Origin: Hydrogenobacter sp. T-2
GTDB lineage: Bacteria; Aquificota; Aquificia; Aquificales; Aquificaceae
Reading direction: 5' to 3'
Assembly: GCF_033971325.1 (NCBI RefSeq)
Contig: NZ_CP117180.1
Coordinates: 1,484,472-1,548,471 of the forward strand
DNA: 64,000 nucleotides
In this document: in pieces, positions 13,398 through 63,655 of the stretch
How positions within the stretch are numbered: position 1 is the first letter of the stretch
Layout: each line of letters opens with the position of its first letter
Made by a program: the position numbers and the translations under genes
Notes under the pieces: model-generated
What the model was told of the DNA's origin: nothing
Database searches by the model: none
Seen by the model: the letters and a program-made list of their open reading frames with translations, nothing else

Positions 13398-15491
13398 ATG
13401 GAAGCTACTCTAAATAAAAAATATGAGGAGAGACTCTTCAAGTCTCTTGGATACGAAGACAGCAAGGTTAAAAAGGCCGTTGAATTCATAGAAGAAAAAC
13501 ATGCAGGACAGTTCAGAAAGTCAGGTGAACCCTATGTGGTCCATCCTATAGAAGTTGCCATTATCCTTGCGGAGCTCTGTATGGATACGGATACGGTGGT
13601 TGCAGGGCTCTTACATGACGTGCTTGAGGATACAGAGACCACATATGAGGAATTAAAGGATAACTTTGGTAAGGATGTGGCGGATATAGTGGAAGGTGTA
13701 ACTAAACTGGGAAAGATACACTTCAAGGATGTGCAGACTCAAAAGGCGGAAAACTACAGAAAGCTCATCCTTGCCTTTTCAAAAGACCTAAGGGTGATAT
13801 TCGTAAAGCTGGCGGACAGGCTTCACAATATGAAAACCTTGCAGTATTTTAGCAAGGAAAAGCAGGTTAGAATAGCAAGAGAAACCCTTGAAATATACGT
13901 CCCCATAGCAAACCGGCTTGGTCTTTGGAAGATAAAAACAGAGCTTGAAGACCTGTGTTTTATGTATCTTTATCCAAAGGAATACGAAGAGGTAAAAAAC
14001 TTTGTGGGAAACACAAAAAAGGAACTTGAGGATTATCTCAAGAGGCTTTTTATACCAAAACTAAAGGAGGAGCTGAAAAGGGCGGGCATACGAGCACAGG
14101 TATTTTATAGACCAAAGCACTTATATGGCATATGGCAAAAAGCCTTGAGGAAAGGTATAAAACTTGAAGATGTGCATGATATCTTAGGTGTTAGGGTTAT
14201 AGTAGACACAGTTCAAGAGTGCTATCTTGTGCTTGGCTTAGTTCATAGCGTATTCAAGCCAGTCCCGGGAAAGTTTGATGACTATATCTCTCTGCCTAAG
14301 CCAAACCTCTACCAGTCCTTGCATACTACGGTTATAGGTCCAAAGGGTAGGATGGTGGAGGTGCAGATACGCACATGGGAAATGCACGAAAGGGCGGAAA
14401 AGGGTATTGCTGCACACTGGGCTTATAAAGAAGGCAAAAGCGTAAAGGATGGTGGAGTATACTCTTGGTTGAAGGGTCTTGTGGAAAGCATAAAGGGAAG
14501 CAAAAACCCTCAAGAGCTTTTGGAAAACCTAAAATTGGAGCTATTTTCTGAAGAAGTTTTTGTCTTTACTCCAAAGGGAGACCTTGTGGTTCTTCCAAAG
14601 GGTGCAACGCCTGTAGACTTTGCCTATCACATACACACAGATATAGGCAACCACTGTGCTGGAGCAAAGGTAAAGGGCAGGATTGTTCCTCTCAATTATA
14701 AACTTCAAAACGGAGATATGGTGGAGATAATAACCAATCCTAACAAGAAGCCTAATCAAGAATGGTTGAATTTTGTGGTTACCTCTAAGGCAAAAAGCAG
14801 AATAAAGGCGGTTTTAAAGGAGCTTGAAAGGGAGAAATACATACAGCTAGGAAAAGAGAAGTTTGAGCTGTACTTACAAAAGCTGGGTATTGGCAGAGAA
14901 ATTTTACTGAATAAACTCACTGAGGAGACAAAGGCAAAGACAGAAGAGGAGCTTTATCTACTTTTGGGAAGTGGAAAGCTCTCAAAGGAAAGGGTATTCT
15001 CCCTTTTTAGGAAAATCCAAAAGGAAAAGCCTCCAGAAAGGGTAGAAGATATAATCCACATAGACGGGCTTGGGAACGTGCTACATACCCTTGCGGAGTG
15101 CTGTAATCCCTTGCCGGGAGAGGAGGTTTACGGCGTCATATCAAGAGGCAAGGGCTTGGTTATACATTCAAAGGATTGCCCTAACCTAAAGCATCTATGG
15201 AGTGTATCACCAGAAAAGGTCATAAAGGTCTTGTGGAACAAGTCTCAGGGGTTGCATCCAGTAAGGTTAAGGCTTATAGTCAAAGACCGTATGGGTATTT
15301 TGGGAGAAGTGACTACCACCATAGCAAAATCTGGTGCAAACATAACAGAAGCCAAAACCAAAAGCCTACCCTCTGGTCAAGCACTAATGGATTTTACCCT
15401 TCAGTTGGAAAACTACCAGAGCTTTTTGAGGGTCAAGGAAGCACTAAAGGGTTTAGAGGGTGTGGAAAGTGTGCAGAGGTTGATGGGGTAG
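13398..15491 (+). CDS. rsh: Bifunctional (p)ppGpp synthetase/hydrolase (RelA/SpoT homologue)
   Basis: A 697-residue long RSH enzyme controlling the stringent response. Domains in order: HD hydrolase (about 25-180) with intact HAGQFRKSG, LLHDVLEDT and KLADRLHNMKTL; synthetase (about 230-345) with YRPKHLYGIW, LPKPNLYQSLHT and VEVQIRT; TGS (about 385-445, VFVFTPKGDLVVLPKGATPVDFAYHIHTDIG begins it); a Cys-rich zinc-finger-like region (AECCNPLPG); and a C-terminal ACT domain. The hydrolase residues look complete. The short synthetase motif that reads RFKD in bifunctional and EFDD in synthetase-only enzymes reads KFDD here (14271-14282). The start has no Shine-Dalgarno and TATTAT ends 5 nt upstream. 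Confidence 0.95.
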   Translation: MEATLNKKYEERLFKSLGYEDSKVKKAVEFIEEKHAGQFRKSGEPYVVHPIEVAIILAELCMDTDTVVAGLLHDVLEDTETTYEELKDNFGKDVADIVEGVTKLGKIHFKDVQTQKAENYRKLILAFSKDLRVIFVKLADRLHNMKTLQYFSKEKQVRIARETLEIYVPIANRLGLWKIKTELEDLCFMYLYPKEYEEVKNFVGNTKKELEDYLKRLFIPKLKEELKRAGIRAQVFYRPKHLYGIWQKALRKGIKLEDVHDILGVRVIVDTVQECYLVLGLVHSVFKPVPGKFDDYISLPKPNLYQSLHTTVIGPKGRMVEVQIRTWEMHERAEKGIAAHWAYKEGKSVKDGGVYSWLKGLVESIKGSKNPQELLENLKLELFSEEVFVFTPKGDLVVLPKGATPVDFAYHIHTDIGNHCAGAKVKGRIVPLNYKLQNGDMVEIITNPNKKPNQEWLNFVVTSKAKSRIKAVLKELEREKYIQLGKEKFELYLQKLGIGREILLNKLTEETKAKTEEELYLLLGSGKLSKERVFSLFRKIQKEKPPERVEDIIHIDGLGNVLHTLAECCNPLPGEEVYGVISRGKGLVIHSKDCPNLKHLWSVSPEKVIKVLWNKSQGLHPVRLRLIVKDRMGILGEVTTTIAKSGANITEAKTKSLPSGQALMDFTLQLENYQSFLRVKEALKGLEGVESVQRLMG

Positions 15492-15505: not shown

Positions 15506-15630
15506 TCGAGCAGGCTTTTATACCCACTTGATAAGGGTTTACGGAGTGCGGTGTAAACACCAACCCTACCTAACACGGTTAGGTAAGCTTTTGTCGGCAT
15601 CCACATTCCGCACCCCACTTTAAAAGCTAA
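15506..15630 (-). ncRNA. Structured repeat RNA candidate, copy 1
   Basis: A 125-bp element about 87% identical to a second copy at 15743-15868. Read on the minus strand it can fold into a rod of three stacked helices: 11 bp (GUGGGGUGCGG with CCGCACUCCGU), 12 bp (GUGGAUGCCGAC with GUUGGUGUUUAC) and 10 bp (CUUACCUAAC with GUUAGGUAGG) capped by CGU, followed by a 9-bp hairpin (UCAAGUGGG with CCUGCUCGA, one A-C mismatch). It has no convincing -35 box of its own, only a GATACT-like -10, so it may be reached by read-through from copy 2. There is no open frame of note and no U-run terminator. It begins 14 bp after the relA/spoT stop. No known RNA family was recognised. Confidence 0.62.
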
Positions 15631-15742
15631 GAGAGTATCCCTTAGTATAGACAAATATCCCTTTTAGGGACATTTATCCACACTTTGGGTTTAGGGGCTC
15701 ACCGACCCCAGTGCCTTACTCCAACTGCACTAATACCGCTCA
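15631..15742. other. Spacer between the two structured repeat copies
   Basis: A 112-bp non-coding stretch. It contains a short inverted pair around 15694-15708 (GGGG...CCCC), an inverted repeat TCCCTTTTAGGGA at 15659-15670, and a perfect DnaA-box nonamer TTATCCACA at 15674-15682. No gene is seen. If one transcript covers both repeat copies, this is its linker. Confidence 0.5.
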
Positions 15743-15868
15743 TCAAGCAGGCTTTTCATACCCACTTGATAAGGGCTTGCAGAGTGCAGTGTAAACACCA
15801 ACCTCACCTAACACGGTTAGGCGAGCCTTTGTCGGTATTCACGTTCCGCACCCCGCTTTAAAAACTAA
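15743..15868 (-). ncRNA. Structured repeat RNA candidate, copy 2 (promoter-proximal)
   Basis: A 126-bp element matching copy 1 with one inserted base and 15 substitutions, all transitions. On the minus strand the same rod forms: 11 bp (GCGGGGUGCGG with CUGCACUCUGC), 3x1 internal loop, 12 bp (GUGAAUACCGAC with GUUGGUGUUUAC), 5-nt bulge, and 10 bp (CUCGCCUAAC with GUUAGGUGAG) capped by CGU. All 33 pairs hold in both copies through compensatory or G-U changes. A 9-bp hairpin (UCAAGUGGG with CCUGCUUGA) follows. The predicted transcription start falls at about 15867, the first bases of the element. It lies in a gap between two converging genes, so it is not a leader of a protein gene. Function unknown. 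Confidence 0.7.
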
Positions 15869-15873
15869 AGAAT

Positions 15874-15902
15874 AATATACAACATTTATCTTCGTTTGTC
15901 AA
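15874..15902 (-). promoter_or_regulatory. Strong promoter reading into the structured repeat RNA
   Basis: On the minus strand TTGACA (15902-15897) and TATATT (15879-15874) are separated by exactly 17 bp. These are the same hexamers and spacing as the dnaK promoter in this window. The predicted start is about 7 nt downstream, at the boundary of repeat copy 2. No minus-strand protein gene follows before the end of relA/spoT. Confidence 0.8.
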
Positions 15903-15944
15903 CATTTTCAAAAACTAATCGCCAAGACCAGTTGCCAAGACTAC

Positions 15945-18899
15945 CTACAAGCTTACAAACTCCAACTTCCCATCCTTCAAATCCACCATTACCCTTTGCC
16001 CCTCTTTTATCTCACCCTTTATAATTAGGTTTGCCAGAGGAGTTTCTAAGTGCTTTTGCAGTGTCCTTTTGAGAGGTCTTGCACCATAGGCTGGGTCATA
16101 GCCGAGCTTTACAAGATGCTCCTTTGCCTTTTCTGTGAGCTCTATGGAAATGTTCCTCTCCGCCAGTCTTTTGTTTATACTTGCCACAAGCAGGTCTATT
16201 ATCTGGAAGAGCTCCTTCATGGTCAAGGGTTTAAAGACAATTATCTCATCTATCCTGTTTAGAAACTCTGGTCTGAAGTGATAACGCAGTTCTTCAAGCA
16301 CCCTTTCCCTTGCCCTTTCAAACTCCCTTTGAACCCTTTCTTCGTCTCCGTCCACAGGTATGCTCAAAAGATACTGAGAGCCTATGTTGGAGGTCATGAT
16401 TATCACCGTGTTTCTAAAGTCTACCGTCCTTCCGTGAGAGTCTGTGAGCCTTCCATCGTCCAAAACCTGCAAAAACAGGTCAAAGACCCTTGGATGTGCC
16501 TTTTCTACCTCGTCAAGGAGCAAGACCGAATAGGGTTTTCTACGAACCGCCTCGGTGAGCTTTCCTCCCTCTTCGTATCCCACATAGCCCGGTGGTGCAC
16601 CTATGAGCTTGGCTATGCTGTGCTCTTCTTTGAACTCGGACATATCAAGTCTTATTAAGGCATCTTCCTCTCCAAAGAGTAGCTCCGCAAGAGCCTTTGA
16701 AAGCTCCGTTTTTCCTACGCCCGTGGGTCCAAGGAATAGGAAGCTGGCTATGGGTCTTTTGGGGTCTTTTAGACCTGCCCTTGCCCTCCTTATGGCTTCT
16801 GCAACCGCAATTACCGCATGCTCTTGGTCTATTACCCTCTTGTGTAGTTCCTCTTCCAATTTGAGGAGCCTCTCCATCTCCTCTTCCTTTAGCTTTGTGG
16901 TAGGAATGCCAGTCCACTCGGAGACCACCTGTGCAATATCATCCCAGCCTACTACAAGCTCCTGAGCCTTTTTGCTTTCAAGCTCTTTTAATTCCTTTTC
17001 TAACTTCACCTTTTCTATCTTTAGGTTTGCTTCCTTTTCGTAGTCTCCTCTCTCGGATGCCTTGATTATCTCTTGGTCAAGCTCCTCTATACGCTTCTTT
17101 ATTTCCGATATTCTTGCCTCCGTCCCTCCTAACCTTGAAAGGAGTTCTTGCTTTTCCTTCTCAAGTTGAACCTTCTTTATCTTTAGTTGAGCTTCCTTTT
17201 CATAGTTGCCTTCAAGGTATGCCTTTTGTATCTCTTCCTCAAGGCTTCTTAGCCTTCTTTCTATTTCTTGAATCTCTGGAGGAACTGCTACCGCCATTAG
17301 CTTTTTGCGTGCAGATGCTTGGTCAAGGGCGTCTATTGCCTTATCGGGTAGCTTTCTAAAGGTCACATACCTTCTTGTGAGCTTTACCGCAGATTCTATG
17401 GCTTCGTCAGATATCTTTACCTTGTGGTGCTTTTCCAATTTTGGTCTTAGACCCTTGAGTATCTCTATGGTCTCTTCCTCTGTAGGCTCATCCACGTATA
17501 TGGGTTGAAACCTTCTTTCAAGGGCTGGGTCCTTTTCTATGTATTTGCGATATTCGTCCACCGTGGTTGCACCTATGACCCTTATTTCTCCTCTTGCCAA
17601 AGGAGGCTTTAGCATGTTGCCAGCATCTACCGCACCTTCTGCCTTGCCTGCACCCACCACGGTATGAATTTCATCTATAAAGAGTATTACATTACCCTTC
17701 TGTTTTACCTCTTCCAAAAGACTTTTAAAACGCTCCTCAAATTCTCCTCTGTATTTTGAACCTGCTATGAGAGAACCCATGTCTACGGATATAACCGCCT
17801 TGTCCTGAAGCTCTACAGGCACTTCCTTGTTAACTATCCTTTGTGCCAGACCTTCCACTATGGCAGTCTTTCCAACGCCCGGGTCTCCCACAAGCACAGG
17901 GTTGTTTTTCGTTCTTCTGAGTAGCACCTCTATAAGCTGGTTTATTTCCCTTTCTCTTCCTATCACTGGGTCAAGTTTGCCCTCCCTTGCCATCTGTGTG
18001 AGGTCCACACCAAACCTCTCAAGGGCGGACTTTTCCTCTTCCCTTAGCTCTTGTGCCACATCCTTCATTTTTTCACCTCCTGCTATATCTTCTAAAATCT
18101 TACCAGCAATAGTATCCTTTGCCTCCACAAGGCTTGCGACTATATGATAGGGTTCTACCTGAGAAAGACCCTCAGAGACCGCTTTGTCCTGAGCCTTCTC
18201 AAGGACTTTAATGAGGTTTTGAGAGTAGTCAAAGGCTGGTTCTTTGCCAAAGACTATTTTACCCACCGCATCTATGACCCTATCGGGAGATATGCCAAGC
18301 TCCTTGACCTGCTCTACAAGAGTTGATGTTTCAAGTGCTTTTCTTATAAGCCCGTCAATACTTAGCCTATTTTCAAGAAAGGCTCTCACATCCTCTAACT
18401 TAAAGACCGCAGAAAGGCTTCTTTCTACACCTTCGAGCTGACTTCTATATTGACCTTCAAGCCTCTCAAGCCGTGCCAGTTCCACCTGAAGCTCTTGCAA
18501 ACTCCAGTAATCTCCGTATTTTCTTGCCCTCTGAAGCTCTTGGTTTATCCTCTCCTTTGCCCTCTTTATCTTGTCCAACTCAATCTGCACCTGACCTATA
18601 TCAGACTTTACCTGCATTATCTTACTTCTTAGGTCAATAAGGTGCTGTGCTTCTTGCTGAACCGCCTTGTCTATTTGAGCGTGGAGCTTTTCAATGTATT
18701 CAGAGACCTTTTTGTAAAAGCCCTTTACATCCACACCTCTCTTTTCAATATACTTTGACAAAGGAGACTTTTCATCAGAAAGCATAAAGAGGAAAAGGTG
18801 GTCGGTATCCACCTTGCTATCTCCCCTCTTTTTTGCCAAGTCTTTTGCCCCGCTTAGGTATTCCAAAGACCTTGCGGAGAAAAGATTTTCACTAAACAT
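15945..18899 (-). CDS. clpB: ClpB disaggregase with enlarged N-terminal domain
   Basis: A 984-residue Hsp100 AAA+ chaperone that rescues aggregated protein with DnaK/DnaJ. Typical ClpB is about 860 residues; here the Clp N domain is split by a predicted coiled coil (about residues 65-165, rich in Gln, Lys and Glu) before the second N-repeat (about 220-290). NBD1 Walker A is GDPGVGKT (about 338-345), NBD2 Walker A GPTGVGKT (about 724-731). The middle coiled coil contains a tandem near-duplication ([18 protein letters not shown] at about 565 and [18 protein letters not shown] at about 619). ATG 18899 has a clear AAGGAGG. The promoter carries a HAIR-like repeat for HspR. Confidence 0.95.
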
Positions 18900-61729: not shown

Positions 61730-61759
61730 CTTGACAAGACTACGCTAAAGTTTTATATT
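61730..61759 (+). promoter_or_regulatory. dnaK promoter with HAIR-like HspR operator
   Basis: TTGACA at 61731-61736, 17 bp, TATATT at 61754-61759. CTTGACA-N7-GCTAAAG (61730-61750) overlays the -35 and spacer with the spacing of a HAIR operator, as at clpB. A 30-nt leader with AAGGAGG follows. Confidence 0.72.
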
Positions 61760-61789: not shown

Positions 61790-63655
61790 ATGGCGGAGAA
61801 GATAATAGGCATAGACCTTGGGACAACAAACTCTGTGGTGGCGGTTATAGTAGGTGATGAACCAGTGGTTATTGCCAATCAGGAGGGCTCAAGGCTTACG
61901 CCCTCTGTGGTCTCTTGGACAAAGGAAAAGGAGGTGCTTGTGGGAGAGCCTGCAAAAAGGCGTGCCATACTTGACCCAGAAAACACCGTATATGAGTCTA
62001 AAAGGTTCATAGGCAGGAAATACGAAGAAGTGCTCGATGAGGCAAAACGTGTTTCTTACAAGGTAGTGCCAGATGACAAGGGAGATGCCAGTTTTGAGAT
62101 ACCAAACCTAGGTAGGAAGGTCCGTCCAGAAGAAGTAGGAGCACAGGTGCTTAAAAAGTTAAAGGAAGCTGCAGAGGCATACCTTGGAGAAAAAATAACA
62201 AAGGCGGTCATAACAGTTCCTGCCTACTTTAACGAAAGGCAAAGACAAGCTACAAAGGATGCAGGTAAGATAGCAGGGCTTGAGGTGCTTAGAATTCTTA
62301 ACGAGCCAACCGCTGCAGCACTTGCCTATGGACTTGATAAGAAAAGCGATGTGAGGATACTTGTTTACGACTTTGGTGGTGGAACCTTTGACGTTTCCAT
62401 TCTTGAAGTTGGAGAAGGAGTAATAGAAGCTAAGGTTCCGGGCGGAGATCCACATCTTGGTGGTGCAAACATAGACGAAAGGATAATGGAATGGCTGATA
62501 GAGGAGTTCAAGAAAGAGACTGGTGTTGACCTAAGAAAAGATAGGACCGCTTTGCAAAGGCTAAAGGAAGCCAGCGAGCAGGCAAAGAAGGAGCTATCCT
62601 TTAAGTTAGAAACAGAGATAAATCTACCTTTTATAACCATAGACCCATCCACCAATCAACCTTTGCACCTACAGAAAAAGCTTACAAGAGCAAGACTTGA
62701 AGAGATGATAAAAGACCTCATAGACAGAACTATGGATATTGTTAAAAAAGCCCTTGAGGAGGCCAAACTAAGACCTCAGGATATTGACGATGTGGTGCTT
62801 GTGGGAGGTTCTACGAGGATACCTCTTGTTCAGCAAAGGATAAGGGAATTCTTTGGTAAAGAACCACACAAGGGTGTAAACCCAGACGAAGTGGTGGCAG
62901 TGGGTGCTGCCATACAGGCTGGTGTGCTTTCTGGAGAAGTCAAGGAAATACTCCTTGTGGACGTAACTCCTCTATCTCTTGGTGTGGAAACCTATGGTGG
63001 CGTTATGACGGTTCTTATACCCAGAAACACACCCATACCCTACAGGAAATGTGAAACCTTTACCACAGCCAGCGATTATCAAACAGAAGTAGAAATCCAC
63101 GTGCTACAGGGCGAACGTCCAATGGCAAAAGACAACAAATCCCTGGGCAAGTTTTATCTCACTGGTATACCACCAGCACCCAGAGGCGTTCCAAAGATAG
63201 AGGTGTGTTTTGACATAGATGCGGATGGTATTCTCCATGTAACCGCAAAGGACTTAGGCACTGGCAAAGAGCAGTCCATAAGAGTTCAAGCATCTTCAGG
63301 TCTTACGCAGGAAGAGATAGAGAAGATGGTAAAGGATGCCCAGCTCCACGAAGAAGAAGACAGGAAAAAGAAGGAACTCGTGGAAGCCAAAAACCAACTT
63401 GACCAATATATTTACAACCTTGAAAAGACTCTAAAGGAAAACAAGGAAAAACTGCCCACGGATATGGTTTCAGAGATAGAAAGGACCATAGAAGAGGCAA
63501 GGAGGGTCTTTGAAAGCTCTCAAGATGTGCAAGAAGTAAGAAGGACTATTGAACGGGTGCTTGAGACCGCTGGTAAGATAGGAAGCTATATATATCAAGG
63601 ACAAACCACACAAAAGGGTGAAGGTGGAGACGTTATAGAAGGAAAGCCTATGTGA
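61790..63655 (+). CDS. dnaK: Chaperone DnaK (Hsp70)
   Basis: A 621-residue Hsp70. ATPase domain with [28 protein letters not shown] and [14 protein letters not shown]; substrate domain with [17 protein letters not shown]; and a helical lid. The bacterial loop after the first phosphate motif is present. It refolds proteins with DnaJ and GrpE and in HspR systems acts as corepressor. ATG 61790 has AAGGAGG about 6 nt upstream. It stands alone, flanked by transposon debris and an L,D-transpeptidase gene, away from dnaJ. Confidence 0.97.

Follow-up and report, generated by a model that had tools for sequence, protein, structure and literature searches.

A near-consensus promoter in the clpB–relA/spoT gap of Hydrogenobacter sp. 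T-2 is probably the left-end promoter of a protein-less miniature TnpB-element derivative

What does a near-consensus promoter serve that is located between two convergent genes? The question is raised by a stretch of 64,000 nt from Hydrogenobacter sp. T-2 (GCF_033971325.1, NZ_CP117180.1, positions 1,484,472–1,548,471, forward strand), referred to here as the window. The neighboring genes, named from their translations via knowledge of the protein families, are presumably relA/spoT (13398–15491, plus strand) and clpB (15945–18899, minus strand). The initial annotation had described TTGACA-17-TATATT on the minus strand, with the hexamers and spacing of the dnaK promoter and a predicted start on the first bases of a repeat, and was borne out in these points. 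The motif (15902–15874) scores 11 of 12 against TTGACA/TATAAT-like hexamers, with a spacer of 17 nt (16–18 nt in sigma-70-type promoters), and its start at approx. 15867 coincides with the edge of the repeat copy at 15754–15868. The pattern TTGACA-N16-18-TATAWT is found twice in the 64 kb compared to 0.07 occurrences expected by chance, and two occurrences were obtained in 0 of 100 shuffled windows. The second occurrence (61731–61759, plus strand) is located directly upstream of dnaK (61790–63655). This supports a real and near-consensus promoter, from which the repeat would be transcribed into a non-coding RNA.

The gap sequence was searched against 41 genomes from within the genus, the family and the order. 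Near-complete copies (89–97% identity over a matched unit of approx. 298 bp) were detected four times in genome G003 and once in G007, located at unrelated places and with similarity dropping sharply on both sides when aligned with their flanks. G007 additionally harbors paired ends approx. 1.45 to 1.6 kb apart. Among 112 genomes of the order, the miniature family is restricted to the genome of the window (G000), G007 and G003, and the orthologous clpB–spoT gap of G007 contains neither the element nor repeat copy 1. This distribution bears on an ordinary trans- or cis-acting small RNA, e.g. one antisense to the relA/spoT 3' end or acting on clpB. A transcript from 15867 would indeed head leftward to the convergent end of relA/spoT at 15491, but the unit is found at unrelated loci with unrelated neighbors and is absent from the orthologous gap, its conservation tracks the transposon rather than the locus, and Rfam assigned no family to the element RNA (the only hit in the window was a tRNA-Met), all of which renders such a small RNA very unlikely.

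The ends of the element were deduced from empty sites. An empty site in G000 reads CTCTAAAGGTC|TTCAAGAATC, while the filled site in G007 reads CTCTAAAGGTC[TTGGCG...GATACTC]TTCAAGAATC. Insertion takes place 3' of (G/A)GTC without target duplication, as seen at the clean empty site in G000 of the G007 element L031; the sites of L043 and of the miniature copies L040 and L041 agree with this. Since the empty sites fix the ends, the window element was set at 15925 to 15633, preceded by its target tetranucleotide (Table 1). Both ends are common to an autonomous element and no ORF of at least 50 aa is encoded on the minus strand within 15633–15925, as is characteristic of a non-autonomous element. 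The promoter lies in the left end of this 293-bp element and is not an orphan; it is probably the left-end promoter of a protein-less miniature derivative of an IS200/IS605-type TnpB element. The copies L040 (G003:C50) and L041 (G003:C14) have their flanks swapped relative to G000 and G007. Their sites correspond to 601 kb and 1229 kb in G000, and approx. 263 bp present at the 601-kb site are missing in the G003 counterpart; either recombination between copies or draft misassembly would account for the exchange.

Table 1. Features assigned in the gap between clpB and relA/spoT (window positions)
Feature	Position	Strand	Basis or remark
Left-end stump of the older copy, TTGGCAACTGGTC (putative)	15926..15938	-	11/13 match to consensus TTGGCGACTAGTC
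Target tetranucleotide GGTC, presumed TAM, directly 5' of the element	15926..15929	-	(G/A)GTC before most related elements
Complete non-autonomous IS200/IS605-like element, 293 bp, TTGGCGATTAG...GGGATACTC	15633..15925	-	dispersed copies; ends from empty sites
-35 hexamer TTGACA	15897..15902	-	within conserved left end; kept in left ends of tnpB elements
-10 hexamer TATATT, 17-nt spacer	15874..15879	-	predicted start approx. 15867
omegaRNA (reRNA) scaffold	15633..15856	-	homologous to tnpB 3' end and right end; alignment, covariation
Large 5' stem of the scaffold	about 15856-15779	-	
Second stem of the scaffold	about 15776-15736	-	
Right-end hairpin of the scaffold	about 15685-15645	-	
GATACT, last bases of the transposon right end (the "weak -10" noted for copy 1)	15634..15639	-	
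Guide position (TCTTAGCTTTTAAAGTGGGG), the 20 nt that immediately follow the right end	15613..15632	-	set by GATACTC; guide rule from PMC8612924
Repeat copy 1, 3'-truncated and without promoter; left over from an earlier copy of this element	15506..15632	-	87% identity to copy 2

The paired ends of G007 belong to autonomous elements of 1.45 to 1.6 kb, which have the same ends as the window element and encode a TnpB of 514 aa (L031). This protein was matched by NF040570 guided_TnpB with 104.8 bits (cut-off 100) and by Pfam Cas12f1-like_TNB (1.7e-18), and its PDB matches are Cas12f and TnpB (IS605 OrfB). The tnpB gene is encoded on the same strand as the sequence common to the window element, and its 3' end overlaps that sequence. 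The autonomous tnpB-only (IS1341-type) elements of the genus (L031–L034, L076 and L077) share ends, target preference and scaffold with the window element, from which they differ by the tnpB ORF of about 514 aa. In two of the four G007 copies this ORF is shortened. The genome of the window itself carries two tnpB genes (602014–603552 and 1664307–1665827), the products of which share 94% and 92% identity with the TnpB of G007 and contain intact RuvC D/E/D and zinc-ribbon motifs (LDFG, LVLE(D/N)L, HADVNAS and CxxC...CxxC), besides tnpB fragments and a more distant TnpB. The latter (L078, G000:C1:1465469–1466818; 44% identity) is a divergent third TnpB, which reads NAQVNSAKN at RuvC-III with the usual D missing and is possibly nuclease-dead. 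A covariance model of the right-end core retrieved six omegaRNA-like sites in the genome of the window. Two of these accompany an intact tnpB, one is the window element, two are remnants and one is a weak match.

Related elements retain this promoter architecture in their left ends. The aligned left ends of tnpB and miniature elements begin with GTCTTGGCGACTAGTCTyTGAAAATrTTGACA, followed 17 nt after the -35 hexamer by TAATTT, TAATGT, TAATCT, TAAATT, TAAACT or TATATT. The spacer sequence varies from subfamily to subfamily, and TTGACA-17-TAnnnT is retained in the left ends of tnpB elements (including those of G010 and G005) despite this divergence. In full-length elements the promoter is positioned ahead of tnpB. 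Among the miniature copies, TTGACA-17-TATATT is intact in three of six and one base off in two more. Left ends from a Thermodesulfobacteriota MAG retain the promoter as well, with a -35 hexamer that is off by one base. In the genome of the window, a left end with a spacer deletion (L079, G000:C1:592748–592936) is located beside a tnpB fragment of 63 codons ending in a stop. In other genera of the order, the left-end and promoter query gave weak matches (G080, G086, G104 and G109), which were inspected. One of them is a tRNA gene promoter and another is promoter-like DNA, and a miniature element was not among them. The same promoter form precedes a tRNA gene (L149) in another family of the order.

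The earlier statement that the promoter lacks a minus-strand gene applies to proteins, but not otherwise, as an omegaRNA scaffold was found downstream. From 15856 onwards, the element can be aligned over its full length to the terminal part of tnpB together with the right end, and the guide position comes directly thereafter, which is the layout of a TnpB omegaRNA. The reading frame is lost, since some gaps against tnpB have lengths not divisible by three; these indels disrupt the frame yet spare the stems. A conserved secondary structure is evident from alignment and covariation. In alignment A1 (18 sequences), 60 base pairs were assigned, for which 96.3% of the cells are paired and two-sided changes occur in 21 pairs; none of 500 shuffles scored as high, and structures slid along the alignment reached 32–49% pairing. 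The fuller, full-length alignment of 21 sequences yielded 73 pairs (96.4% paired, two-sided changes in 41 pairs), with 97.8% pairing in the miniature elements alone. A reservation comes from the fold of the window copy itself, on which the six miniature copies keep 24 changed pairs and break 22, many of the latter falling in one local helix (GGGG/CCCC) not common to all copies. The predicted transcript (15867–15632) folds at -116 kcal/mol (MFE z -9.4). The right-end hairpin is strong (z -3.5), while folding of the left end is no better than that of shuffles, and conservation of the hairpin could serve transposition rather than the RNA. The outermost stem (15856) follows 11 nt downstream of the predicted start, which places the edge of the internal deletion at the 5' end of the scaffold. 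Anatomy and homology, the past movement, the conservation of promoter and structure, and the presence of TnpB genes with catalytic motifs are read directly from these comparisons, and the anatomy of the element, a promoter and an omegaRNA scaffold with the protein gene lost, is well supported.

The two direct repeats (15516–15630 and 15754–15868; 87% identical, spaced by 238 bp) had been suggested to form a single tandem transcript or to have two promoters differing in strength. The sequence does not support this proposal; the repeats represent two generations of one miniature transposon, of which copy 2 is the complete one and has a promoter of its own. A tandem duplication of a small RNA would account for the identity and spacing of the repeats and for the -10-like GATACT ahead of copy 1, which exists at 15639–15634 at the position noted in the initial annotation. 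That hexamer, however, belongs to the transposon end, where GGATACT is invariant in 18 of 18 aligned omegaRNA copies. Furthermore, copy 1 has neither a left end nor the 3' half of the scaffold and resembles the 5' half only. A putative left-end stump is located beyond the other side of copy 2, as expected for a nested insertion. A tandem duplication is hardly credible on these grounds. The simplest reading of the sequence is that the newer copy inserted at (A/G)GTC inside the left end of the older one, with the GGTC of the stump as its probable target; the stump itself is preceded by AGTC (15942–15939). On this reading, the older copy also lost approx. 42 nt of its promoter region and its 3' half. 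In the hairpins retained, all 10 of the 10 pairs changed between copies 1 and 2 still pair, where approx. 40% would be expected per random change.

The guide TCTTAGCTTTTAAAGTGGGG falls in the older copy and corresponds to its start. No perfect match was found in the genome outside the locus itself. With up to three mismatches, copy 2 itself (three mismatches) and one further site at 767 kb (three mismatches) were retrieved, compared to one site with the reversed control, so that near matches elsewhere are at chance level. The absence of a target is as expected for an occupied site and equally for a dead element.

A second miniature element was identified in G008 (L172; C19, about 60.47–60.76 kb), where a left end is located only 186 nt upstream of an omegaRNA core. 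The unit of 288 bp is situated upstream of gyrB; its promoter is TTGACA-17-TAAACT, and its scaffold is complete (MFE -113.6, z -7.7). By both its left and its right end, it falls into the subfamily of the G010 tnpB element rather than that of the window element, and it looks separately derived. Shared ancestry of both miniature types is the alternative, in line with a few sequence states that they have in common (CCTAACCGTGTTAGG, GGTATTAG). The design of promoter plus omegaRNA may have arisen more than once in the genus, in the subfamilies of the window and of G008. The guide position of L172, TTGACTGTAAAGACTATGCG, overlaps a promoter-like TTGACT-17-TATAAT approx. 100 bp before the gyrB-like gene.

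The window element resembles a mobile guide-RNA gene standing on its own, which could make use of a TnpB encoded elsewhere in the genome. An internal deletion would have removed the nuclease gene as far as the 5' edge of the omegaRNA, so that the promoter would fire directly into a complete scaffold. The stand-alone omegaRNA would start at approx. 15867 and read past 15633 into flanking DNA, which would serve as guide. A TnpB from elsewhere in the genome would bind and trim it in trans, and the complex would cleave GGTC plus guide, i.e. copies of the locus without the element; repair from a filled copy would then restore the element at its site. Transcription, binding by TnpB, cleavage and the benefit for retention are proposed here by analogy with the TnpB literature. 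For a selfish, guide-RNA-only satellite of TnpB elements, equipped with a strong promoter of its own as well as a complete omegaRNA, and kept or restored at its site by the TnpB of other elements in trans, we estimate a probability of about 0.5.

The main rival is an inert transposon relic with a functionless RNA, in which the promoter simply survives from the tnpB left end and the 3' region of tnpB was retained for the sake of the right end, which transposition requires. Any non-autonomous IS200/IS605 element must keep both ends for mobilization, and elements akin to palindrome-associated transposable elements (PATEs) were presented earlier as passengers consisting of ends only (PMC7290912). 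In addition, no Y1 transposase was found in the genome of the window. Of the 13 other genomes of the genus, 12 likewise yielded none; G007 alone encodes one copy, which is split. The element has moved in the past, but its present mobility is doubtful, since this transposase was not found, and possible immobility weakens a present-day role in retention. Against the relic, approx. 224 nt of scaffold are kept, well past the right-end hairpin and including 5' stems from within the tnpB ORF, and the stems carry compensatory changes. The promoter state of the six miniature copies, the same architecture in the G008 subfamily and the decayed copy 1, which still retains every hairpin pair, likewise argue for more than preserved ends. 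An inert relic is considered unlikely, though less so than the other alternatives.

Parts of this arrangement are already known, both as PATE-like layout and as TnpB omegaRNA. A PATE-like element of Halanaerobium hydrogeniformans consists of a left end of 28 nt, the last 58 nt of tnpB and a right end of 160 nt, without transposase (PMC7290912). This member of the PATEs and MITEs of IS200/IS605 has the same layout of left end, tnpB 3' end and right end as the window element. It was presented as an ends-only passenger, with RNA unmentioned in the main text (PMC7290912), whereas in the window element a near-consensus left-end promoter is placed closely ahead of an omegaRNA scaffold of full length. 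Moreover, the latter is known from several copies in three species, and its RNA shows covariation. The reRNA of ISDra2 TnpB, about 150 nt or longer, is composed of the tnpB 3' end and the right end followed by a guide of approx. 16 nt from flanking DNA, and the TAM equals the insertion target (PMC8612924). For AmaTnpB and orthologs, the 5' side of the mRNA is trimmed by the very TnpB that it encodes (PMC10278001). The origin of these omegaRNAs is the same as that of the window scaffold; they overlap tnpB and are processed from its mRNA, in contrast to the window omegaRNA, which is predicted to be a separate unit without tnpB. The main text of an Aquificales ncRNA survey (PMC4227106) contains neither "transposase" nor "clpB". 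The novelty appears to be a miniature element of promoter and complete omegaRNA with covariation, present in two subfamilies; priority is uncertain, as some primary literature on TnpB and IscB guide RNAs lies outside this comparison.

The unexplained promoter and repeat have become a defined element open to test and a natural candidate for a trans-acting omegaRNA in thermophiles. TnpB, the presumed ancestor of Cas12, is usually met with a guide RNA that overlaps its own gene. A mobile unit of promoter and guide-RNA scaffold would illustrate how guide RNA and nuclease can split into separate genes, a step required towards CRISPR-like systems.

Related sequences were also found beyond the miniature family. 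The Thermodesulfobacteriota MAG (JAUQQL010000020.1) encodes two TnpB proteins, L081 (77% identity) and L082 (70% identity), with the same left end, for which cross-phylum transfer or a binning error is possible. In G005, twelve matches to the omegaRNA core were retrieved, while tnpB is present only as partial matches, several of them with stops; this genome possibly holds many solo omegaRNA remnants.
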